Source: Cupriavidus basilensis
GTDB lineage: Bacteria > Pseudomonadota > Gammaproteobacteria > Burkholderiales > Burkholderiaceae
NCBI RefSeq assembly: GCF_000832305.1
Contig: NZ_CP010536.1
Span: 4,278,001 to 4,342,000 of the forward strand
Length of the DNA stretch: 64,000 nucleotides
Direction: 5' to 3'
Made by a program: the position numbers and the translations under genes. Positions 18,846 to 29,792 of this stretch are shown in pieces. A model generated the notes under the pieces. The model had not been told where the DNA came from. It did not search any database and saw nothing but the letters and a program-made list of their open reading frames with translations. Positions within the stretch are counted from its first letter, which is position 1, and each line of letters begins with the position of its first letter.

Positions 18846-19199
18846 TCAGACCCGGTAGCCGTACAGCGAGCCGTCGCCGCCGCGCGAGTTGTCCAGCGAA
18901 CTGGCCGCGATGTCGCCACTGAAAGCGGCACGGGCACCATCGGTGAACGTGTCGAACTTGCCTGCCTTGGCACCGTCGGTGAACGTGTCGAACTTGCCTG
19001 CCTTGGCGCCGTCGGTGAACGTATCGAACTTGCTGGCCTTGGCGCCGTCGGTGAACGTATCAAACTTGCCGGCGCGCAACGCGTCGGCGTACACGTCGAA
19101 CTTGCCGACCTTGCTGTTGGCGGGCGCTGCCAGTGCCACGGCCGACGAGGCCACCATCAGCACGGCGAGAGCGCCGCCGAGGATGCGTTTGGCATTCAT
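18846..19199 (-). CDS. Small secreted protein with 12-residue GKFDTFTDGAKA repeats
   Basis: A 117-residue protein. Residues 1-25 form a Sec signal peptide ending in VALAAPA. Residues about 30-88 are five tandem units of the pattern GKFDxFTDGAKA, the first degenerate (GKFDVYADALRA), and the C-terminal 29 residues are unrelated. An AAGGAG site fixes the start at 19199. Repeats are rich in Asp, Thr and Lys, and an FDxxTDG motif could bind a cation or make regular surface contacts; this is inference. I do not recognise a named family. It is monocistronic, convergent with the RND pump. Confidence 0.85.
   Translation of the reverse strand: MNAKRILGGALAVLMVASSAVALAAPANSKVGKFDVYADALRAGKFDTFTDGAKASKFDTFTDGAKAGKFDTFTDGAKAGKFDTFTDGARAAFSGDIAASSLDNSRGGDGSLYGYRV
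18934..19110 (-). repeat. 36-base tandem repeats inside the secreted protein
   Basis: Four well-conserved 36-base units start at 18934, 18970, 19006 and 19042, and a degenerate fifth follows to about 19110. Neighbouring copies differ by a few bases, so expansion looks recent. The units are in frame and encode the 12-residue protein repeat. Confidence 0.92.
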
Positions 19200-19645
19200 T
19201 TGGGACTCCTTCAACTGATTGTGTCGTTCTTGCTTTTAATTTTCTGTACTAGCTGCCCCGGCAAATCTATGTTGCGCTGCAGGCACGGACTGAAGATTAG
19301 TGGCTTGGCGGGCAAGGAGAAATACCACTGCGACGAATGGTGCGTTGCGAGTCGTGAAACGCTGGAAAGTCGGACGAACGGCGCGGATTGGACGCCCAAT
19401 GGCGTGACGGGAGGGCTTGCGAGGGGGCGCGGCGGGTGGCCAAAGCGATGCTTGATGGCCCGCCAGCCCAGGCCGCAGGCCGGTCCGCGGGCGAACAGCT
19501 TGCTGGCGGGCCAGCGTTTTGCGGGATGGGCGGCGCCGATGAGCGCGCGCCAGGGCGCCACGACCGGCGCCCGGAATCAGCCTTGAATCGGCCTGAACGT
19601 ACCCAAAAGTGCCGGATAAGCTTTTGACCAGGCCTTGACCAGGTC
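19200..19645. other. Gene-free stretch between repeat protein and rnk
   Basis: No frame here has convincing protein composition. The part next to 19200 is AT-richer and probably carries the promoter of the repeat-protein gene. A short direct repeat (GACCAGG, twice within 20 bases) lies near 19626-19645, just after the rnk stop. Confidence 0.5.
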
Positions 19646-20598: not shown

Positions 20599-21039
20599 TT
20601 ACGCGTGGCTTTCCGGATGCGGATGGCACTCGCAGGCGGCGCCAGCGGCGGCTTGCTGCAGGTTCTGCAGGATGCCGCACTCGCTGGCCGGATGGGGCTG
20701 GTCGCAAGTATGGCGAAGTGCCCGCAACTGCCCTTCCAGCGCCTCCAGCGCCACGCGCTGGGCGTGGATCTGCTCGATCTGGCGATCCAGCAGGCTGTTG
20801 ATATCGTCGCAGGCCAGGGTCGGATCGCGCTCGAAGTCGCGCAGCCGGCGCACGTCGGACAGGCTCATGCCAAGGGAGCGGCAGTGGCGCACGAAGTTCA
20901 GCTGCAGCAGATGGCCGTCGCCGTAGCGGCGATAACCGTTGTCCTCGCGCTGGGGCGCGTCGAGCAGGCCTTCGCGCTCGTAATAGCGGATGGTTTCCAC
21001 GTCGCAACTGCTGTGCTTTGCAAGCTCACCGATACGCAT
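20599..21039 (-). CDS. cadR: MerR-family Cd(II)/Pb(II)-responsive regulator
   Basis: A 146-residue MerR-type activator. The N-terminal winged helix (IGELAKHSSCDVETIRYYEREGLL) is followed by a dimerisation helix and a metal site with the CadR/PbrR cysteines C77, C112 and C121 (LACDDIN, HTCDQ, SECGIL). A C-terminal tail CECHPHPESH adds Cys and His ligands, as in CadR proteins with a second metal site. A 7-7-7 dyad lies just upstream. No cation-transporting ATPase or efflux gene is adjacent, so its usual target is absent locally. CadR and PbrR cannot be separated by reading. Confidence 0.88.
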   Translation of the reverse strand: MRIGELAKHSSCDVETIRYYEREGLLDAPQREDNGYRRYGDGHLLQLNFVRHCRSLGMSLSDVRRLRDFERDPTLACDDINSLLDRQIEQIHAQRVALEALEGQLRALRHTCDQPHPASECGILQNLQQAAAGAACECHPHPESHA

Positions 21040-21139: not shown

Positions 21140-21517
21140 TCAGCCAGGCGCCGGGCCCCGTGCCTGGTCGCGCAGCGTAAGCGTGCGCGGCACGAAGGCC
21201 GCGCGCATCACCTCCACCGCCAGCTCTGGCCGGGCGGCGCCGCACATGAACACATCCACGGCGGCAAAGCCGTACTCGGGCCAGGTATGGATGCTGATAT
21301 GCGACTCCTTGAGCAGCAGCACCCCGGTTACGCCCAGCCCCGGCCCGAAGTGCCGGAAGCGCGCATCGACCACGGTGGCGCCGGCGGCCTGCGCCGCCCG
21401 GTAAAGCACGCGCTCGACCAGTGCGGCATCGGCCAGCAGATCGCTCGCCACGCCTTGCAGGTCGGCAAGCAGGTGGTGGCCGAGCACGGCCGGACAAGGC
21501 AGGGCTGGCGCGTTCAT
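21140..21517 (-). CDS. speD: S-adenosylmethionine decarboxylase proenzyme
   Basis: A 125-residue, single-domain (prokaryotic short form) AdoMet decarboxylase. It self-cleaves before Ser72 in the motif KESHISIHTWPE to create a pyruvoyl group, then makes decarboxylated AdoMet, the aminopropyl donor for spermidine. Cleavage residues Glu71-Ser72 and the later catalytic Cys in DVFMCG are intact. The start at 21517 directly follows the small Gly/Ser gene (stop at 21528). It closes a five-gene minus-strand operon with DUF350, SPFH and DUF4178 genes rather than lying with ordinary spermidine genes; the synthase partner is encoded divergently at 24998. Confidence 0.95.
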   Translation of the reverse strand: MNAPALPCPAVLGHHLLADLQGVASDLLADAALVERVLYRAAQAAGATVVDARFRHFGPGLGVTGVLLLKESHISIHTWPEYGFAAVDVFMCGAARPELAVEVMRAAFVPRTLTLRDQARGPAPG

Positions 21518-21527
21518 GGCCGCCGGC

Positions 21528-21695
21528 TCATTTGTGGCCGCCGCCGGAGGACCAGCCGCTGGAGCCGGAGGAACCGCCGCTCCAGCCACGCGAGCTTGCG
21601 TATCCGGACGAGCCGGAGCCGGTGGATTCGCCGATGTTGAAGAAGGTCGTGCCGAACAGCACGATGATGCCGTAGACGAGATAAAGCAGGCGCAC
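21528..21695 (-). CDS. 55-residue membrane-anchored Gly/Ser-rich protein (GTG start)
   Basis: A short gene that standard length cut-offs would miss. From a GTG at 21695 it encodes 55 residues: a hydrophobic N-terminus with one membrane segment (RLLYLVYGIIVLFGTTFFNI, after the start residue) and a tail of Gly, Ser and Trp (GWSGGSSGSSGW) ending GGGHK. AAAGGA lies about 12 bases upstream, inside the end of the DUF4178 gene, whose stop is only seven bases before this start. The speD start follows 10 bases after its stop. Tight spacing on both sides supports translation. I do not recognise a family; it may be a membrane partner of the DUF4178 or SPFH proteins. Confidence 0.7.
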   Translation of the reverse strand: MRLLYLVYGIIVLFGTTFFNIGESTGSGSSGYASSRGWSGGSSGSSGWSSGGGHK

Positions 21696-21701
21696 GCTGA
21701 C

Positions 21702-23222
21702 TCAATCCTTTCCGGCCCAGCGCTGGACCAGCCAGATCGGCGCCCAAAGCAGCAGGAAGCCGATGACGATAGTGAACCAACCCCGATCAGTGACGAGCGC
21801 CACCGGGACATTGAGGATGGCGAGGAGGATGGCGTAGACCTTGGCGCTCTTGCGGCAAAAGGCGAGGTCGGCGCTATTGCCCGCAGCCGATGCGCGCGCT
21901 GCCTGCGGCAAGCGGGCGGCCGCGGCCAGCCCCGGGCTGGACTTGAACCACTGCGCCAGCTGCGCGCGCGCCACGGTGGTGGACAAAGTCCAGACGATCT
22001 CCGTGCCGGAGGTCTCGCGCGTGAGCCGGCGCGCCGGCTTGCCGAATTCGGTCAGGCGCGTGGTGTCGCCCACCTTGACGCGCCAGTTGAAGGTGCCGGC
22101 CGCGTACAGCACCTCGCTTTCGTAGTCGTAACCCTGCTGGAACGTCTGGCCCTGGTAGCTTGCGGACGTGCCGGAGACCATGCGCGGCCAGGTATCCAGC
22201 ACCTCGACCCGGTCCCAGCCGCTGTCTTGCTCCACCAGCCACATCAGGCCACGCTGCTCGTTGAACAGCAGATACTCGACCCAGGTGGAGGCTTCTTCCT
22301 CGTCGTTGTCGGTGCACTGCATCAGGCCCAGCACCGTGTACGGTTTGCCGTCGATGTTGCCAATGTCGCCCGGTGCCAGGCTGGTCTTGAGCGCATCGAG
22401 CTCACGCTGCTTTTCCAGCACGAGAGCCGTGGAGGTGGAGCAGTCGATCTCGCTGTGGCAGCTCGGGCAGACCACGAAGCTGGCCACGCCCGCGCGGTAG
22501 GCGATCGGGCCGCCGCAGCCGGGGCAGGCCAGCGGCACGGCCTTGCCGCGGTAGCGGTCGGCGGTGCCGGCGATCTGGCCGGCCTCGCGCAGCAGCTGGC
22601 ATTTGAGCTGGTCGAGCGTGACCGCCTGGCCGGCGTAGATGGCGGGCGGATCGCCATCGGCGTAGTCGAGCGTGAGGAAACGGCCTTCGTCGCGGAAGTC
22701 CGCAACCTGCGCGGTCCAGCCAGCGCCCACCGCGAACGGCAGCTCGCCCTGCCCGCCGGTGCAGCGCGCGCTGCGCACGTCGCTGGCCAGGTAGCGATGC
22801 TTGTCGAAGTACAGGGGCGTGCCGGGCGTGAGCTGGTCATGGCGCGGCAGCGCCACGCCGTTGAGCTGCGCGGCGGATTGCTCGGCCGTGACGCGTCGGG
22901 TCAGCATGTACTGGCCGGAGGCATCCGCTAGCCAGCCGTCGCTGCCGTCGTCGAACAACAGGTACCACTCGTTCCACAGGCCGGAGTCGTAGCGCAGCTG
23001 GATGCGGCCGACCAGGGTGAAGCCCTGCCCGTCCCACTGGCCCGAGGTGTGGATCTGCAGCGGCGTGTAGTCCTCCAGCACGGCGGACATCTTGCCGATG
23101 TCCTTGACCGTGTCGGCGTCCTTGAGCAGCGTGCTGTGGCAAAACTCGCACACCACCATCACCGCGGCAGACGAGCGGAAGGCCGCCGGCGCGCCGCAGC
23201 TTGGGCAGTTGATTTCTTGCAT
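21702..23222 (-). CDS. DUF4178 protein with two zinc ribbons and C-terminal membrane hairpin
   Basis: A 506-residue protein built as a duplication. The first zinc ribbon has C6, C9, C25, C28 and the second C233, C236, C252, C255; each is followed by a beta-rich DUF4178 module containing GxWxEYLLF-type segments (NEWYLLFDD; STWVEYLLFNEQ). Two membrane segments lie near residues 462-500 before a basic C-terminus. The function of DUF4178 is unknown. It starts 21 bases after the SPFH gene and is followed seven bases later by the small GTG gene, so it is mid-operon. The start has only a weak ribosome site, which fits translational coupling. Confidence 0.9.
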   Translation of the reverse strand: MQEINCPSCGAPAAFRSSAAVMVVCEFCHSTLLKDADTVKDIGKMSAVLEDYTPLQIHTSGQWDGQGFTLVGRIQLRYDSGLWNEWYLLFDDGSDGWLADASGQYMLTRRVTAEQSAAQLNGVALPRHDQLTPGTPLYFDKHRYLASDVRSARCTGGQGELPFAVGAGWTAQVADFRDEGRFLTLDYADGDPPAIYAGQAVTLDQLKCQLLREAGQIAGTADRYRGKAVPLACPGCGGPIAYRAGVASFVVCPSCHSEIDCSTSTALVLEKQRELDALKTSLAPGDIGNIDGKPYTVLGLMQCTDNDEEEASTWVEYLLFNEQRGLMWLVEQDSGWDRVEVLDTWPRMVSGTSASYQGQTFQQGYDYESEVLYAAGTFNWRVKVGDTTRLTEFGKPARRLTRETSGTEIVWTLSTTVARAQLAQWFKSSPGLAAAARLPQAARASAAGNSADLAFCRKSAKVYAILLAILNVPVALVTDRGWFTIVIGFLLLWAPIWLVQRWAGKD

Positions 23223-23243
23223 GCTTAAGGGATAAGGGCGCGC

Positions 23244-24278
23244 TCAGCCTATCAGTTTCTTGAGGATCTCGGCCTTGGCGGTGTCGAACTCCGCCTGGGA
23301 GATCAGGCTCTTGTCGAGCAGGTCCTTGAGCTTTTGCAGGCGTGCGGCGGGATCGTCGGCGGGCGCGGCCACTGCGGGCGCGGCCGCTGCCGCGGCGGGT
23401 GCGGCAGGCTGGACCCCGGCGGCGGCGCCAAGCCCGCCCGCCATCGCCTGGCCCATCACCGCGCCGGCCGCCAGGCTGGCGCCAAGGCCGGCCACGCCGC
23501 CCTCGTTCTGCGCGGCCAGCGGGATCGAGGTGGCGACCTGGTACTGCGTGAACTTCGCCATATCGCCCATCATGCCCATGGAGATACGGGTGTCGATGGC
23601 CTTTTGCAGCTCTTCCGGCAGCGACACATTGGTCACCGCGAAGTTATCCAGCGCCACGCCATAGCGCTCGAACTCCGGCGCCAGCTTGTCGCGGATGGTC
23701 TGCGACATCAGCGCCTGGTTCGCGGCCATGTCCAGGAAGGGTACCGAGGCGCCGCCCAGCGTGGCGGTCATGGTGGCGATCAACAGGTTGCGCAGCTGCT
23801 CTTCCACCTCGTCGCGAGTGTACTCGGCGCGCGTGCCGCTGATCTCGGTATAGAACCTGGCGGCGTCGGCCACCTTGTACGAATACAGGCCGAAGGCGCG
23901 CAGCCGCACCATGCCGAAATCGGCGTCGCGGATGGTAATCGGCTGGGCGGTGCCCCACTTGCGGCCGATCTGCAAGCGCGTGCTGAAGAAGTACACATCC
24001 GACTTGAAGGGCGACTCGAACAGCTTGTCCCAGTTCTTCAGGTAGGTGAGCACAGGCAGCGTTTGCGTGGTGAGTTTGTGCATGCCGGGCCCGAACACGT
24101 CGGCGATCTTGCCTTCGTTGACGAACACCGCCATCTGCGACTCGCGCACGGTCAGGCTGCCACCGTACTGGATTTCCATATCCTCCATCGGATAGCGCCA
24201 GGCCAGTACGCCGTCCGTGTCCTCCGTCCACTGGAGGATGTCGATAAACTGCTTCTTGATGAACGATCCGATGCTCAT
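23244..24278 (-). CDS. SPFH/Band-7 domain protein with C-terminal SHOCT
   Basis: A 344-residue protein of the SPFH type often annotated as virion-core-like (YdjI). Residues about 30-235 form the SPFH fold, with no N-terminal membrane helix; it probably sits on the membrane surface. A Gly/Ala-rich linker (240-308) leads to a SHOCT motif at about 309-344 (LQKLKDLLDKSLISQAEFDTA is its core pattern, read at DPAARLQKLKDLLDKS and following). SPFH proteins assemble in ordered membrane domains. It lies between the DUF350 and DUF4178 genes with gaps of 44 and 21 bases. Confidence 0.9.
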   Translation of the reverse strand: MSIGSFIKKQFIDILQWTEDTDGVLAWRYPMEDMEIQYGGSLTVRESQMAVFVNEGKIADVFGPGMHKLTTQTLPVLTYLKNWDKLFESPFKSDVYFFSTRLQIGRKWGTAQPITIRDADFGMVRLRAFGLYSYKVADAARFYTEISGTRAEYTRDEVEEQLRNLLIATMTATLGGASVPFLDMAANQALMSQTIRDKLAPEFERYGVALDNFAVTNVSLPEELQKAIDTRISMGMMGDMAKFTQYQVATSIPLAAQNEGGVAGLGASLAAGAVMGQAMAGGLGAAAGVQPAAPAAAAAAPAVAAPADDPAARLQKLKDLLDKSLISQAEFDTAKAEILKKLIG

Positions 24279-24322
24279 GGCAATCCCCAGGTTCTCAGCG
24301 TTGTTCCAGCACGATCAGGAAG

Positions 24323-24709
24323 TCAGGACAGGCAGGCGGCATTGATCAAGCCGACCGTCACTGAAATAGCGCCCATCAGGCCGCCCATGCCGATATTGTT
24401 CGATTCGATCGCCGCATCCATGTCGGGCAGCGCGCGCGCCAGGCCCGCGTAGGCCAGCGCCTGCACCAGCATCGCCCCCACCGACCACACCAGGAACATC
24501 AGGAAGGTGTCGTTGTGCTGGATGCTGGACGACAGCGTAAAGCAAAAACCGATCATCGCCCCCGACAGCGAAAGCGCTGCCGCGAGGTTGCCCTGGCGGA
24601 TCAGCGCGAACTCGCGAAACGGCGTGATCCTGGTGTAGACTCCGACGAACACCGCCAGCAGGGCAAGGCCGGCCAGCAGGTGCAGCACGTAGGCGTAGAT
24701 GGCTTGCAT
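24323..24709 (-). CDS. DUF350 (YjfL-like) inner-membrane protein
   Basis: A 128-residue protein with four membrane segments (about residues 5-25, 42-60, 68-90 and 105-126), matching the DUF350 family represented by E. coli YjfL. Conserved features include the RQGNLAAALSLSGAMIGF motif and an acidic DMDAAIESNN segment before the last helix. Family function is unknown; in E. coli the yjfL operon also contains a PspA-like gene and a glutathionylspermidine-synthase-like gene, an independent link between DUF350, membranes and polyamines. First gene of the minus-strand operon here. Confidence 0.9.
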   Translation of the reverse strand: MQAIYAYVLHLLAGLALLAVFVGVYTRITPFREFALIRQGNLAAALSLSGAMIGFCFTLSSSIQHNDTFLMFLVWSVGAMLVQALAYAGLARALPDMDAAIESNNIGMGGLMGAISVTVGLINAACLS

Positions 24710-24775
24710 CCTGGTTGATCTCCTGCTTGTTCCACGACGGTGTTCCGGGCTGCCGCAACAGCAACAGTAAGCGAG

Positions 24776-24796
24776 TCGTGAATCGTGAATCGTGAA
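24776..24796. promoter_or_regulatory. Three direct repeats in the divergent promoter region
   Basis: TCGTGAA occurs three times head-to-tail at 7-base spacing. It lies 67 bases before the DUF350 start and about 200 before the synthase gene, in the 288-base divergent region. It may be a protein-binding array, or a simple tandem repeat; no regulator gene is next to it. Confidence 0.45.
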
Positions 24797-24997
24797 GCCG
24801 TATTGGCGACATCAGCATTGTTGGCAGTTGGCGCCCAAGTATATCCGTTGTCCATTTCGGTTCATCACAACTTTTTGCAGTTTGCCAGGCGTGCGCGCAT
24901 CGCGCGGCGGCTCGCCTGAGCGCCACGCCTGCCCTTTCCAGCGTCCTTCCCGGCTTCCCTCCCGGCTTCCTCTCCGACCCCCGATTCCCTAGCCCCG

Positions 24998-26509
24998 ATG
25001 CGCGACCGTACCCTTGTTCTTTCGGTGTTGATCGTGGCGTCCTGCGGGCTCGGCTACGAGCTGATCGCAGGCGCCCTGTCCAGCTACCTGCTGGGCGACT
25101 CCATCCTCCAGTTCTCCTCCATCATCGGCTGCTACCTGTTCGCCATGGGCGTGGGCTCGTGGCTGTCGCGCTATGTGAAGGATGAGGACGTGCTGGCGCG
25201 CTTCATCGATATCGAGATCCTGATCGGCCTGCTCGGCGGCATCTCCGCGGCACTCCTGTTCGTGGTGTTTGCCTGGCTGTCCGCGCCCTTTCGCACCGCG
25301 CTCTACGCCATGGTGTTCGTGCTCGGCGTGCTGGTAGGCATGGAGATCCCGCTGGTCATGCGGGTGCTCAACACGCGCCGCACCGCCTTCAGCGAATTGG
25401 TCAGCCGCGTGCTGACGTTCGACTACCTTGGCGCGCTGGCCGTCTCGCTGGTGTTCCCGCTAGTGCTGGCGCCGCGCCTGGGGCTGTCGCGCACCGGCTT
25501 TTTGTTCGGCATGCTCAATGCGGGCGTGGCGCTCGTCACCATCCACATCTTCCGCGACGAACTCAAGCCGGTGATGTCGCGCATGCTGCGCGCCTCGCTG
25601 GTGCTGGTGCTGCTGGCGGGTGGCTTCCTGGCCTCGGGGCGGCTGACCCACTGGGCCGAGCGCGGCATGTTTGGCGACGAGATCATCCATAGCGAAAGCA
25701 CGCCGTACCAGCGCCTGGTGATCACGCGCTGGAAGGACGACATGCGCCTCTATATCAACGGCAACCTGCAGTTCTCCTCGCGCGACGAGCACCGCTACCA
25801 CGAGGCGCTGGTGCATCCCGTGCTGCAGGCACTGCCGTGGGCGCGCCGCGTGCTGGTGATCGGCGGCGGCGACGGACTGGCCGTGCGCGAGATCCTCAAG
25901 CACAAGAACATCGAACACGTGACGCTGGTCGACCTCGACCCCGCCATGACCACGCTGTTCTCGCGCAGCGAGCCGCTGGTGGCGCTGAACCAGGGCTCGC
26001 TCAAGGACGCGCGCGTGCAGGTGGTCAATGCGGATGCCGCGCAATGGATGGAGCAGCACAACGAGATGTTCGACGCCATCATCGTCGACCTGCCCGACCC
26101 GTCCAACTTCGGCCTGGGCAAGCTGTACTCGGTGCCGATGTACAAGCTGATGTCGCACCATCTCGCGGAGAAGGGCTATGCCGTGGTGCAGTCCACCTCG
26201 CCGTATTTTGCGCCGCGCTCGTTCTGGGATATCGACGCCACGCTGCGCGAGGCGGGCCTGCATACCTGGCCCTACCACGCCTATGTGCCGTCCTTCGGCG
26301 AATGGGGCTTCATCCTTGCGGGCAAGCGCGACGACTACACGCCGCCCACGCGCTACACCGTGCCGCTCAAATTCCTCGACGCCGACAGCACCGCGCTGAT
26401 GTTCCGCTTCCCGGCCGACATGGCGCCGCGCGAGGCGCGTGCCAACCGGCTCAACGAGCAGTCGCTGGTGCATGACTTTGAGCAGGACTGGCGCAATGTC
26501 ATTCGCTGA
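24998..26509 (+). CDS. Membrane-embedded spermidine synthase-like aminopropyltransferase
   Basis: A 503-residue fusion. The first 210 residues contain about seven membrane helices; residues about 225-440 form a spermidine-synthase domain with the AdoMet-binding GGGDG at 289-293 and the acidic DLPDP near 364, where the catalytic Asp of SpeE lies. The enzyme would transfer an aminopropyl group from decarboxylated AdoMet, which the divergent SpeD supplies. The acceptor is unknown. The start has a poor ribosome site; first gene of a two-gene plus-strand unit. Such fusions are annotated as polyamine aminopropyltransferases. Confidence 0.9.
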   Translation: MRDRTLVLSVLIVASCGLGYELIAGALSSYLLGDSILQFSSIIGCYLFAMGVGSWLSRYVKDEDVLARFIDIEILIGLLGGISAALLFVVFAWLSAPFRTALYAMVFVLGVLVGMEIPLVMRVLNTRRTAFSELVSRVLTFDYLGALAVSLVFPLVLAPRLGLSRTGFLFGMLNAGVALVTIHIFRDELKPVMSRMLRASLVLVLLAGGFLASGRLTHWAERGMFGDEIIHSESTPYQRLVITRWKDDMRLYINGNLQFSSRDEHRYHEALVHPVLQALPWARRVLVIGGGDGLAVREILKHKNIEHVTLVDLDPAMTTLFSRSEPLVALNQGSLKDARVQVVNADAAQWMEQHNEMFDAIIVDLPDPSNFGLGKLYSVPMYKLMSHHLAEKGYAVVQSTSPYFAPRSFWDIDATLREAGLHTWPYHAYVPSFGEWGFILAGKRDDYTPPTRYTVPLKFLDADSTALMFRFPADMAPREARANRLNEQSLVHDFEQDWRNVIR

Positions 26510-26536
26510 TCCGCATCACCCGCAACCGGAGCTGGC

Positions 26537-28255
26537 ATGGACCGCCGCCGCTTCCTGATCGCCGGCGCTGGCGCGAGCGGCCTGGGCTTGCTGTCCGGCT
26601 GCGATCGCCTGGGCGACGATACCAGGCGCTTCCTGGCCGGCGTCGGCCTGCGCGAGCCCATGCCCGTGGTGCTGCGCCCCGGCATGGCCGAAGGCCACGC
26701 GCTGCGCGATGCCGCCAGTTGGCCGTCGACCGTTTCCGCACAGGACGAGATCGTGACCGATGTTGCCATCCTCGGCGGCGGCGTGGCCGGGCTCAGCGCC
26801 GCGTGGCAGCTGGCGCGCGGCGGCCTGAAGGACTTCCTGCTGGTGGATGGCCCGGAGTTCGGCGGCAACGCGGCGGCCGGAAGTTTCGGCGGCGACCTGG
26901 CCTTCCCGCGCGGCGCGCACTATCTGCCCCTGCCCTCGCCCGAATCCACGCACATCCGCGAGATGCTGGCCGACACCGGCGTGATCCAGCGCGACCCGTT
27001 CGCCGCGCGGCCCGAGTTCGACGAACGCGCGCTGGTGCATGCGCCTGACGAGCGCCTGTTCTTCGCCGGCAAGTGGCACGACGGCCTGCTGCCTAGCGAC
27101 GCTGCGCCGGAGCAGGAAGCGGCGCAGCACGCGCGCTTTCTCGCGCGCGTCGAGCAGCTCAAGAGCGCGCGTGGCAGCGACGGCCGCAAGGCCTTTGCCA
27201 TCCCGCTGGCGCTGGCCTCGCAAGACCCGGCCTGGACCCGGCTCGACCAGCAGAGCATGCGGCAGTGGATGCTGACCGAAGGCTTTACCGCGCCCACCCT
27301 GCACACCTATGTGGACTACTGCTGCCGCGACGATTACGGCGCGGGGCACGAGCTGATCTCGGCCTGGGCCGGCCTGTACTACTTCGCCAGCCGCGCGGGC
27401 CATGCAAGCGATGCGGCCGACGGCGCCGTGCTGACCTGGCCGGATGGATTGCACGCGCTGGTGACGCGGCTCTCGGCGCGCATCGATGCACACCGCGGCG
27501 TCAAACCTGGCGCCCAGCCCTGGCGCCGTCCCGGCATGGCGCTGCAAGTGCAGGAGCAGGGCCGTGGGGTGTCGGTGCTGTGCGCCTGGTGGCCGGATGG
27601 CGTTGGCGCCCGTCCCCCGCGCATCTACCGCATCCGCGCGCGCCGCGTGATCTGCGCCATGCCCCTGCATGTGGCCGCCCGCGTGGCGCCGCTGCGCGAA
27701 TTCGGCTTCGACCCGGCGCGCCACCTGCCGCCCACCGCGTCCTGGCTGGTGTCCAGCTTCCGCCTGCAGGGCTTCCCGCCGGAAGCGCCGGGCGTGCCGC
27801 TGGCGTGGGACAACGTGGTGCATGGCGGACGCGGGCTGGGCTATGTGGTGAGTACCCATCAACTGATCCGGCAGGCAAAGCCAGCAGCCACGGTCTTTAC
27901 CGCGTACTGTCCGCTGGACTTTGCGGCCAGCCCCGGCGCGGCGCCGCGCTCGCTCGCCGACACCCGCCGCTGGCTGGCCGAGGCCAGCGCCGCCGAGCTG
28001 ATGGACTATGCCACCACCGATCTGCGCACGGTCTACGGGCGCGCCTTCTGGCGCCACGCGGACGCGGTGGAAATCACGGTGCGCGGGCACGCCATGGCCT
28101 CGCCGCGCACGGGCTTTCTGGGCAATGCCGGTGCCGCGGCCCTGCGCGCGGCCGATGGCCGCATCCTGTTTGCCCATGCGGACCTGTCCGGCGTGTCGGT
28201 GTTCGAGGAAGCGGCCTGGTGGGGTACGCGCGCCGCGCGGAATATCCTGGGTTGA
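26537..28255 (+). CDS. FAD-dependent oxidoreductase with Tat/lipoprotein-like signal
   Basis: A 572-residue flavoprotein related to amine oxidase/phytoene-desaturase-like enzymes. The N-terminus DRRRFLIAGAGASGLGLLSG followed by Cys22 looks like a twin-arginine signal with a lipobox, so export and lipid anchoring are plausible. The dinucleotide motif VAILGGGVAGLSAAWQLA lies near residue 75-92. A GGAG site precedes the start, 27 bases after the synthase gene, so the two are co-transcribed. Next to a membrane-bound aminopropyltransferase, an amine or polyamine product is an attractive substrate, but this is inference. Confidence 0.85.
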   Translation: MDRRRFLIAGAGASGLGLLSGCDRLGDDTRRFLAGVGLREPMPVVLRPGMAEGHALRDAASWPSTVSAQDEIVTDVAILGGGVAGLSAAWQLARGGLKDFLLVDGPEFGGNAAAGSFGGDLAFPRGAHYLPLPSPESTHIREMLADTGVIQRDPFAARPEFDERALVHAPDERLFFAGKWHDGLLPSDAAPEQEAAQHARFLARVEQLKSARGSDGRKAFAIPLALASQDPAWTRLDQQSMRQWMLTEGFTAPTLHTYVDYCCRDDYGAGHELISAWAGLYYFASRAGHASDAADGAVLTWPDGLHALVTRLSARIDAHRGVKPGAQPWRRPGMALQVQEQGRGVSVLCAWWPDGVGARPPRIYRIRARRVICAMPLHVAARVAPLREFGFDPARHLPPTASWLVSSFRLQGFPPEAPGVPLAWDNVVHGGRGLGYVVSTHQLIRQAKPAATVFTAYCPLDFAASPGAAPRSLADTRRWLAEASAAELMDYATTDLRTVYGRAFWRHADAVEITVRGHAMASPRTGFLGNAGAAALRAADGRILFAHADLSGVSVFEEAAWWGTRAARNILG

Positions 28256-28749: not shown

Positions 28750-28913
28750 GTCACTCCCGCGCGCGTGCGCTGGCCTTGCGTGCGCTCGTAGTCAGGTTCC
28801 CGGTTTTCCTGTCGTTAGTCTCCTGCACGCGGCGCGCCTGGCCTGGCGCTGCGCGTGCTTGCGATGCGCGCCCCTGTTTTCACCATGGCATTGATCACTT
28901 CCTCACACAAAAC

Positions 28914-29792
28914 ATGAAACGCGTCCTGCTCTTCCTGGCGACCAACCTCGCCGTCATGCTTGTCCTCAGCTTCACCGCCAGCTTGCTGGGCGTGAACCGC
29001 TTCCTCACCGGCAACGGCCTCAACCTCGGCATGCTGCTGGCATTCGCCGCGCTGATGGGCTTCGGTGGTTCCTTCATCTCGCTGCTGATGTCCAAGACCA
29101 TCGCCAAGTGGTCGACCGGCGCGCAAGTCATCACCCAGCCCGGCAACGGCACCGAAGTCTGGCTGGTGCAGACCGTGCAGAAGCTGGCCGACCGCGCCGA
29201 CCTGCCGATGCCTGAAGTCGCCATCTATGAAGGCGAAGCCAATGCGTTCGCCACCGGAGCGACCAGGAAAAGCTCGCTGGTAGCCGTTTCCACCGGCTTG
29301 CTGCAAACCATGTCGCACGACGAAGTGGAGGCCGTGCTCGCGCACGAAGTCGCCCACATCGCCAATGGCGACATGGTCACGCTCACGCTGATCCAGGGGG
29401 TGGTCAACACCTTCGTGATCTTCCTGGCGCGCGTGGTGGGCTACTTCGTGGATTCGATGCTGCGCAAGAACGATGAGGAATCGAGCGGCCCCGGCATCGG
29501 CTACATGATCACGGTGGTGGTATGCGAGATCGTGTTCGGCATCCTGGCCAGCATCATCGTGGCCACCTTCTCGCGCCATCGCGAATACCGTGCCGATGCC
29601 GGCGCGGCCAAGCTCATGGGCAGCCCCACGCCGATGGTGGCGGCGCTGCGCCGGCTGGGCGGCCTGGACTCCGAAGGCTTGCCGCAGAACATGCAGGCGA
29701 TGGGCATTGCCGGTGGCAAGTCGTGGCTGTCGCTGTTCTCCAGCCACCCGCCGATCGAGCAGCGCATTGCCGCGTTGCAAGCTAAGGCCTGA
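28914..29792 (+). CDS. htpX: Membrane-bound zinc protease HtpX
   Basis: A 292-residue M48-family inner-membrane endopeptidase that degrades damaged membrane proteins, usually with FtsH. Two N-terminal helices (about residues 4-25 and 35-55), the zinc motif HEVAH at 144-148 and two further helices (about 155-180 and 195-215) are visible, followed by the glutamate-containing [15 protein letters not shown] segment. The start at 28914 gives the usual N-terminus [12 protein letters not shown]. It overlaps the convergent AraC gene by 11 bases. Its closeness to the SPFH/polyamine block fits an envelope-stress neighbourhood. Confidence 0.96.

Follow-up and report, generated by a model that had tools for sequence, protein, structure and literature searches.

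The window analysed here is a stretch of 64,000 nucleotides from the genome of Cupriavidus basilensis. Between positions 21140 and 28255 it carries seven genes in two divergent units, which are separated by an intergenic region of 288 bases (24710..24997). This arrangement had been described in a first-pass annotation made from the sequence alone, and all seven genes are present at the locus, with Pfam and NCBIfam profiles identifying every product except the small Gly/Ser protein. The minus-strand unit starts with a gene for a DUF350 protein of the YjfL family (24323..24709; 128 aa; PF03994, E 2.4e-33), followed by genes for an SPFH protein (23244..24278; 344 aa; Band_7_1, E 1.5e-78) with a C-terminal SHOCT domain (E 4e-07) and a DUF4178 protein (21702..23222; 506 aa; E 1.1e-28). 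The latter contains two DUF4178 stretches, a hydrophobic C-terminal part and, at its N-terminus, a weak zinc ribbon below the Pfam cut-off. Next lies the gene of a small Gly/Ser protein, the proposed aminopropyl acceptor (21528..21695, minus strand; 55 aa), which was delineated from its open reading frame, its sequence and the C-terminal lysine of its relatives. It has a GTG start, a single hydrophobic stretch at the N-terminus and a Gly/Ser tail ending in SSGGGHK, with the codon of the terminal lysine (AAA, 21531..21533, minus strand) immediately 5′ of TGA. The unit closes with speD (21140..21517), and the plus-strand unit comprises the genes for a membrane-fused aminopropyltransferase (24998..26509; 503 aa) and an FAD amine oxidase (26537..28255; 572 aa).

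The speD product is likely a class 1b S-adenosylmethionine (AdoMet, SAM) decarboxylase: it matched AdoMet_dc (E 3.7e-34) and scored above the cut-off of the equivalog TIGR03330, from which AdoMet specificity is predicted. The open reading frame 21140-21811 overlaps the DUF4178 gene and the likely start is 21517 (125 aa), so that the cleavage serine falls at position 72, as first annotated. His77 (+5) and Cys92 (+20) are in place, with the spacing of S63/H68/C83 in T. maritima. A neofunctionalised SpeD acting as ornithine or arginine decarboxylase, as reported in PMC10407285, was not favoured, given the TIGR03330 score. A search of the host for polyamine genes, one family at a time, found no AdoMet_dc besides the cluster gene; the genome also holds two OKR-type decarboxylase loci and one soluble SpeE-like gene. 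The earlier statement that no normal polyamine gene is present therefore holds in the window but not genome-wide.

The membrane-fused synthase contains a Spermine_synth domain and, by full-length score, belongs to PRK03612, 'polyamine aminopropyltransferase' (695.8 bits against a cut-off of 472, residues 3-501); its aminopropyl transfer activity is a prediction. The GGGDG and DLPDP motifs and the approximately seven helices noted at first were borne out by the alignment, in which GGGDG (289-293) and D364-P-D367-P are retained as columns, and by a structure model with seven N-terminal membrane helices (mean pLDDT 87.5). The spermidine-synthase domain begins at about residue 227, after the seven predicted helices. 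According to the positive-inside rule, K/R residues were biased toward the odd loops in 52/52 and 19/19 synthase sequences; for the second set 22 divergent loci were listed and L122, L123, L124 and L126 were removed by a motif filter. The catalytic domain is thus predicted to lie outside the cytoplasm. The decarboxylated SAM donor and the known aminopropyltransferases are cytoplasmic, which speaks for a topology in which the domain faces inward, its target being either a protein of the cytosol or the tail ahead of export. Against the seven confidently modelled helices and the uniform charge bias, this arrangement appears rather improbable.

Export of the FAD protein, an amine-oxidase-type enzyme according to Pfam, had likewise been suggested, and its sequence carries a twin-arginine signal as well as a lipobox-like LSGC. 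The R3-R4 pair was invariant in 28/28 FAD proteins; a Tat regular expression matched 64 of 69 FAD frames, some of which were over-long, the R3-R4 count being the cleaner one. In a Foldseek search the FAD model came closest to the spermidine dehydrogenase SpdH (PDB 7d9j and others; rank 1, E 1.3e-19, TM 0.59, rmsd 8.8), which has the same fold but is distant, with about 14% identity. A phmmer search of the PDB with the FAD protein as query at E 0.001 did not detect SpdH and matched only a piece of thiazole synthase (E 2.9e-04).

Whether these genes belong together, as first proposed, was assessed by co-occurrence, and the proposal withstood this test. The fused synthase was found in 28 of 249 Pseudomonadota genomes and in at least 588 confirmed stretches of the genome collection. 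DUF4178 was present in 18 of the 249 genomes, all 18 within the 28 with the fused synthase (hypergeometric p ~1e-20, with genomes treated as independent despite their relatedness), and DUF350 in 27 of the 28. The cluster itself is already known. Ravi et al. 2024 (PMC11237479) describe polyamine-linked PSP operons that share the 7TM-SpdSyn fusion, DUF350, DUF4178 and a lipoprotein with the present cluster, and place under the ligase group, in wording that leaves room, a variant in which band-7-SHOCT is accompanied by AdoMetDC and polyamine oxidase. The window fits this variant, with Band-7-SHOCT, DUF350, AdoMetDC and polyamine oxidase and with neither PspA nor CesT. In the passages considered, the acceptor is named no further than 'aminopropylation of other substrates', and the words lysine, glycine-rich and periplasm are absent from the main text. 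Of the first-pass interpretation as a whole, the gene association and the export signal stand and a non-putrescine acceptor is plausible, whereas a genome-wide absence of polyamine genes does not hold; the cluster and the idea of another acceptor are both already in print.

Li et al. 2019 (Biochem J) reportedly described clusters of class 1b AdoMetDC with an MFS-SpdSyn fusion and made the case for an acceptor other than putrescine. These clusters are said to share SpeD, the fused synthase and the DUF350 neighbour with the present one, and the abstract is not known to describe a terminal-lysine protein or an extracytoplasmic catalytic domain. The fusion reportedly failed to complement an E. coli speE mutant, spermidine being absent, which counts against ordinary chemistry at the membrane, in which the fused enzyme would produce a free polyamine such as spermidine or aminopropyl-cadaverine, or load it for export, with the small protein as scaffold or activator docking its lysine in the enzyme. 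In favour of this explanation, the fused enzyme has the catalytic motifs of polyamine aminopropyltransferases, the NCBI family name says the same, and the OKR-type decarboxylases of the genome could supply a diamine; as this explanation also leaves the constant lysine described below unaccounted for, we consider it unlikely.

New here, and overlooked by the earlier annotation, which recorded simply a 'small Gly/Ser protein', is that its terminal lysine is a constant feature across cluster types. In a set of 80 genomes with the fused synthase, a terminal-lysine protein was seen in 61/61 DUF4178-bearing loci from 4 phyla, the lysine being on separate small open reading frames in 56 and on fused DUF4178 tails in 5; L015, L034 and L035, in which DUF4178 ends in lysine beside a separate HK protein, were not counted as fused. 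Overall, 74 of the 80 genomes showed such a protein, 4 were cut by contig ends (L005, L011, L018, L054) and in 2 it was not found. Loci L083-L110, short copies of loci taken again at length, were omitted from the counts, and the sequences counted are related rather than independent. All 28 fused-synthase genomes of the Pseudomonadota sample, the genome under study included, had the protein; among the 27 besides that genome, 23 carried it within the synthase locus and 4 elsewhere, adjoining DUF4178 or DUF350. Database homologues of two small proteins ended in lysine in 19/19 and 36/36 cases, against a background of 10/361 among the other cluster proteins. The carriers differ widely: 45-66-aa one-helix proteins, DUF4178 tails, 77-100-aa Gly-rich proteins, 311-367-aa Arg/Ser-tailed proteins, and single proteins of 576 aa and 510 aa. 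Where the small protein is absent from DUF4178-bearing loci, an unrelated exported protein ends in lysine instead, and none of eight larger or PspA-type carriers that were scanned reached a Pfam cut-off.

A constant C-terminal lysine could have other uses, such as a recognition signal or linkage to peptidoglycan. Braun's lipoprotein (Lpp) is attached covalently via its C-terminal lysine, a residue shared by the window protein, and the lipobox on some copies of the small protein places their tails outside, so that L,D-transpeptidases might form an analogous tether whose link the aminopropyl chemistry modifies or blocks. A lipobox-like N-terminus occurs, however, in only 6/56 small proteins, and the window copy lacks the N-terminal lipobox of Lpp and any cysteine. 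With no transpeptidase encoded by the seven genes of the cluster, and with SpeD and the synthase left unexplained, such a tether is quite improbable.

As a control, all frames were passed through a filter that takes no account of the final residue and asks for a hydrophobic start and for G, S or R at no fewer than 8 of the last 18 positions. On 18 PspA-type, split or plasmid loci it returned exactly one lysine-ending frame in each, and on seven synthase-free DUF350 loci (L220-L226), chosen by hand from 41 DUF350 genomes without a fused synthase (E 1e-60), it returned lysine-ending frames in 0/7. The filter alone is unspecific, since frames not ending in lysine also pass, up to eight in L119. 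In L220 and L221 the Arg/Ser-tailed protein is present but ends in SGFIG; lysine-ending proteins without a Gly/Ser/Arg tail occur in L223 (two), L225 (two) and L226 (one). This association of the lysine with the synthase, 28/28 sampled genomes with the enzyme as opposed to absence from 7/7 synthase-free loci examined, is difficult to reconcile with the view that the acceptor is the head group of a membrane lipid or of an envelope polymer (e.g. phosphatidylethanolamine) and that the protein has an unrelated structural role. The seven predicted membrane helices of the synthase and its SPFH and PspA partners, which act on membranes (PMC11237479), would suit a lipid acceptor, which nevertheless seems improbable.

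Exceptions were few. No terminal-lysine protein was found on the DUF4178 or DUF350 contigs of a Conchiformibius genome with the fused synthase (G252, L047), nor, where searched, in a Rhodanobacteraceae MAG without DUF4178 (G264, L072), in which DUF350 adjoins a lipoprotein ending in TSG, nor in the examined stretches of plasmid records L141 and L145, which hold a lone or partial synthase. DUF4178 was missing from 19 of the 80 loci, at least three of which (L005, L011, L018) end at a contig edge. A search of the other 16 genomes and four from the phylum sample located DUF4178 in 16/20; 14 of the 15 such genomes with a closed 3′ end showed a terminal-lysine protein, the exception being L165, while L156 was 3′-open. 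At first sight the DUF4178-less loci had looked like counter-examples.

The nearly constant presence of the terminal lysine suggests that, rather than making a free polyamine, the enzyme modifies the end of a protein outside the cell membrane. From the computed gene content, co-occurrence, constant lysine, predicted topology, export signal and fold we infer a reaction, its acceptor, transport of the donor and a role for the FAD enzyme. SpeD would form decarboxylated SAM in the cytoplasm, and the seven-helix aminopropyltransferase, whose catalytic domain would face outward from the inner membrane, would attach a 3-aminopropyl group to the lysine that ends the small membrane-anchored Gly/Ser protein, at its side-chain amine. 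The lysine side chain, a butylamine, resembles one half of putrescine; the resulting N-epsilon-(3-aminopropyl)lysine would be spermidine-like. The exported, spermidine-dehydrogenase-like FAD enzyme may then oxidise or reverse the modification, and DUF4178, SPFH-SHOCT and DUF350 may keep the complex at the membrane and regulate it. Periplasmic use of decarboxylated SAM, for which we know of no precedent, requires a donor exporter, and the donor would cross the membrane perhaps via the seven-helix domain or DUF350. This reading, in which the cluster aminopropylates the C-terminal lysine of a protein outside the cytoplasm, is given a probability of about 45%.

Hypusine on eIF5A, the polyamine-lysines of silaffins and the aminopropyl group of microcin C are known cases of aminoalkyl groups attached to lysine or a ribosomal peptide product. 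They differ from the present cluster in enzymes or hosts, and to our knowledge none of them involves a bacterial C-terminal lysine that is exported. Clusters of a YjfC/GspS-like ligase with DUF1190 (YjfM) and DUF350 likewise combine DUF350 with a polyamine-type enzyme and an exported Gly-rich protein, but the ligase-linked DUF1190 proteins end in GG in 7/10 and in lysine in 0/10 cases, and the Gly-Gly end is consistent with a ligase acting on the C-terminal carboxylate. More tentatively still, a widespread bacterial post-translational modification may be envisaged, in which a dedicated C-terminal lysine is aminopropylated extracytoplasmically by a membrane aminopropyltransferase using decarboxylated SAM and a sister GspS-like ligase/DUF1190 system modifies a C-terminal glycine. 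No earlier mention of a role of terminal lysine or aminopropyl-lysine was found among the matches listed, with most subscription literature outside the scope, nor in the excerpted text of PMC11237479, PMC10948618, PMC10407285, PMC11107197, PMC10433244, PMC7857480 and PMC8503589.

The question of which acceptor the membrane-fused aminopropyltransferase uses goes back to at least 2019 (Li et al.; PMC11237479). The constant terminal lysine points to a specific residue, for which a mass shift of +57.06 Da (C3H7N) is predicted. If the proposal is true, it would add a protein modification, place decarboxylated SAM chemistry outside the cytoplasm and make the polyamine enzymes of DUF350 clusters protein-end modifiers of the cell envelope.

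The cluster at 21140..28255 is organized in two divergent units, a minus-strand unit of DUF350, SPFH-SHOCT, DUF4178, a 55-aa Gly/Ser protein and SpeD, and a plus-strand unit encoding a 503-aa membrane-fused aminopropyltransferase (the fused synthase) and a 572-aa FAD protein. All genes were found as described in the first-pass annotation, except that the speD start was corrected to 21517. The statement that no normal polyamine gene is present holds for the window but not genome-wide, as one soluble SpeE-like gene and two OKR-type decarboxylase loci are located elsewhere in the genome. In family searches of this genome, the AdoMet_dc of the cluster was the only one found and the sole PF02784 match was lysA. 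Downstream of speD lies a MerR-family regulator (20599-21039, minus strand), which we take to be of the metal-responsive type from its Cys/His C-terminus, and downstream of the FAD gene an M48 membrane metallopeptidase (28776-29792, plus strand), presumably HtpX-like. Additionally, a signal-peptide-like protein of 12-residue repeats around GKFDTFTDGAKA is encoded by a 36-base tandem repeat at 18846-19214 (minus strand).

In a set of 80 loci with the fused synthase, drawn from at least 588 confirmed stretches, the same genes recur in varying order across Pseudomonadota, Acidobacteriota, Gemmatimonadota and Fibrobacterota. Among 249 sampled Pseudomonadota genomes the fused synthase was detected in 28 (E 1e-60). 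DUF4178 was present in 18 genomes, all of which belong to these 28 (p ~1e-20), and DUF350 in 27 of the 28 and 68 of the 249 (Fisher p ~1e-16), the p-values overstating independence because the genomes are related. The proposal that the cluster genes belong together was thereby borne out. A half-size DUF350 of ~70 aa, which may be the ancestral form or may dimerize, was located directly 5′ of the synthase in five loci (L070, L071, L111, L116, L142). The gene cluster is genuine and has been published before: Ravi et al. 2024 (PMC11237479) report operons in which a 7TM-spermidine synthase is accompanied by DUF350, DUF4178 and a lipoprotein, as well as a band-7-SHOCT variant with AdoMetDC and polyamine oxidase, and credit 'aminopropylation of other substrates' to Li et al. 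2019.

In beta-proteobacterial loci, the small protein between DUF4178 and speD combines a single hydrophobic stretch with a Gly/Ser tail that ends in His-Lys. In the 80-locus set, DUF4178 was inside the stretch examined in 61 loci, and a terminal Lys was found in 61/61. For 52 of these, the protein was captured by a rule blind to the last residue (same-strand open frame, N-terminal hydrophobic stretch, start -60 to +80 bases from the DUF4178 stop); four (L021, L073, L074, L078) were read by hand because their start position or hydrophobicity lay outside the limits of the rule, and in five (L045, L053, L059, L068, L069) the tail is fused onto the end of DUF4178. In L030, L042 and L080 the rule returned an extra candidate frame without terminal Lys. 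The penultimate residue is mostly His; in 8/9 loci from Acidobacteriota and Gemmatimonadota it is Gly, and L125, L127 and L143 have Ile or Val at this position. Since the terminal codon of 56 rule-found small proteins is mixed (AAG 32, AAA 24), conservation acts at the protein level. Among the database relatives of two small proteins, 19/19 and 36/36 ended in Lys.

DUF4178 was outside the stretch examined in the remaining 19 loci. It was located elsewhere in 16/20 genomes (16 of those 19 plus four from the phylum sample). A terminal-Lys protein at these DUF4178 genes was predicted in advance of inspection, and one followed the gene or was fused to it in 14 of the 15 cases with a closed 3′ end. 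Over the 80 genomes, a terminal-Lys protein was present in 74, four were cut by contig ends (L005, L011, L018, L054) and in two none was found. In G252 (Conchiformibius, L047) there was none on the DUF4178 or DUF350 contigs (L189, L233); in G264 (L072) no DUF4178 was found, nor a terminal-Lys protein beside DUF350 (L232), which adjoins a lipoprotein ending TSG.

PspA/CesT-type clusters encode another exported protein as the partner, and it too has a terminal Lys. These carriers comprise Gly-rich proteins of 77-100 aa (ending GGK, GSGK or GVGK), Arg/Ser-tailed proteins of 311-367 aa (FGGK or RGK), a 576-aa protein (RSGK) and a 510-aa lipoprotein on an Alteromonas plasmid (SSGK); a Pfam scan of eight of them gave no family over the cut-off. 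Among 27 other fused-synthase genomes of the phylum sample, 23 have a terminal-Lys protein in the synthase locus and four (G207, G052, G057, G164) have it elsewhere, adjoining DUF4178 or DUF350 (L158, L217, L218, L219). These carriers were first picked by eye and then retested by means of a filter that ignored the last residue, which returned exactly one passing frame with terminal Lys in each of 18 such loci. The three plasmid loci with the cluster (L142-L144) all have a terminal-Lys protein; none was found within the stretch examined around a lone (L141) and a partial (L145) plasmid synthase.

The other five families of the same loci gave a background of 10 terminal-Lys proteins in 361 (SpeD 1/63, SPFH 2/65, DUF350 0/66, synthase 0/101, FAD 7/66). 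In seven synthase-free DUF350 loci, selected by hand from 41 such genomes, a passing frame with terminal Lys was found in 0/7. In two of the seven (L220, L221) a similar Arg/Ser-tailed exported protein ends SGFIG and adjoins other enzyme genes, possibly representing a third variant in which the tail chemistry differs. DUF1190 (YjfM) proteins (L131-L140) had terminal Lys in 0/10 and a Gly-Gly end in 7/10, with a glutathionylspermidine-synthetase-like frame visibly adjacent in 8/10; most carry an RGGFG-type motif. Ligases of this type couple the carboxylate of a glycine to an amine and would accordingly require a C-terminal Gly; the Gly-Gly end is a possible substrate of the ATP-grasp enzyme. 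In parallel, an aminopropyltransferase would need a lysine amine. A second DUF350 of this genome (L001, C2:2334439 region) lies by an exported Gly-rich protein ending SGRSGGG, with a ligase-like frame at the edge, and is probably the sister system.

An AlphaFold2 model of the synthase (52-row alignment; mean pLDDT 87.5, pTM 0.72) has seven long helices at the N-terminus followed by a spermidine-synthase domain, its closest solved structures being aminopropyltransferases. Lys+Arg averaged 11.3 in the N-terminal, 2-3, 4-5 and 6-7 loops versus 3.6 on the opposite side, with the same bias in 52/52 rows, and Lys/Arg likewise favour the inner odd loops in 19/19 synthases (that of the window plus 18 divergent sequences retained from 22). 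Seven helices after an N-terminus on the inside would place the catalytic domain outside the cytoplasm; the rival reading is that this topology is wrong. The tail of the small protein is probably outside too, as suggested by an N-flank charge higher or equal in 54/56 and a lipobox in some copies. In the FAD protein Arg3-Arg4 is invariant (28/28 aligned proteins), and the window copy has LSGC behind a hydrophobic stretch. The FAD-protein model (mean pLDDT 89.1) best matched spermidine dehydrogenase SpdH, closely followed by protoporphyrinogen oxidase, putrescine oxidase and monoamine oxidases.

Synthase domain, Lys tail and amine oxidase, all predicted outside, fit a cyclic scheme: the outward domain would aminopropylate the terminal lysine, and the exported oxidase would then oxidize the spermidine-like product on it; the reaction, a route for decarboxylated SAM across the membrane and a purpose are what we infer. 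The product could alternatively be a small molecule, the acceptor a lipid, or the lysine might serve an Lpp-like link to peptidoglycan. Li et al. in 2019 reportedly found no complementation of E. coli speE by the fusion and proposed that putrescine is not the acceptor. The literature searched, with most subscription papers outside the search, made no mention of a terminal-lysine partner. As far as searched, this partner and the outward catalytic domain have not been previously described, and together they make the question of which molecule receives the aminopropyl group directly testable.
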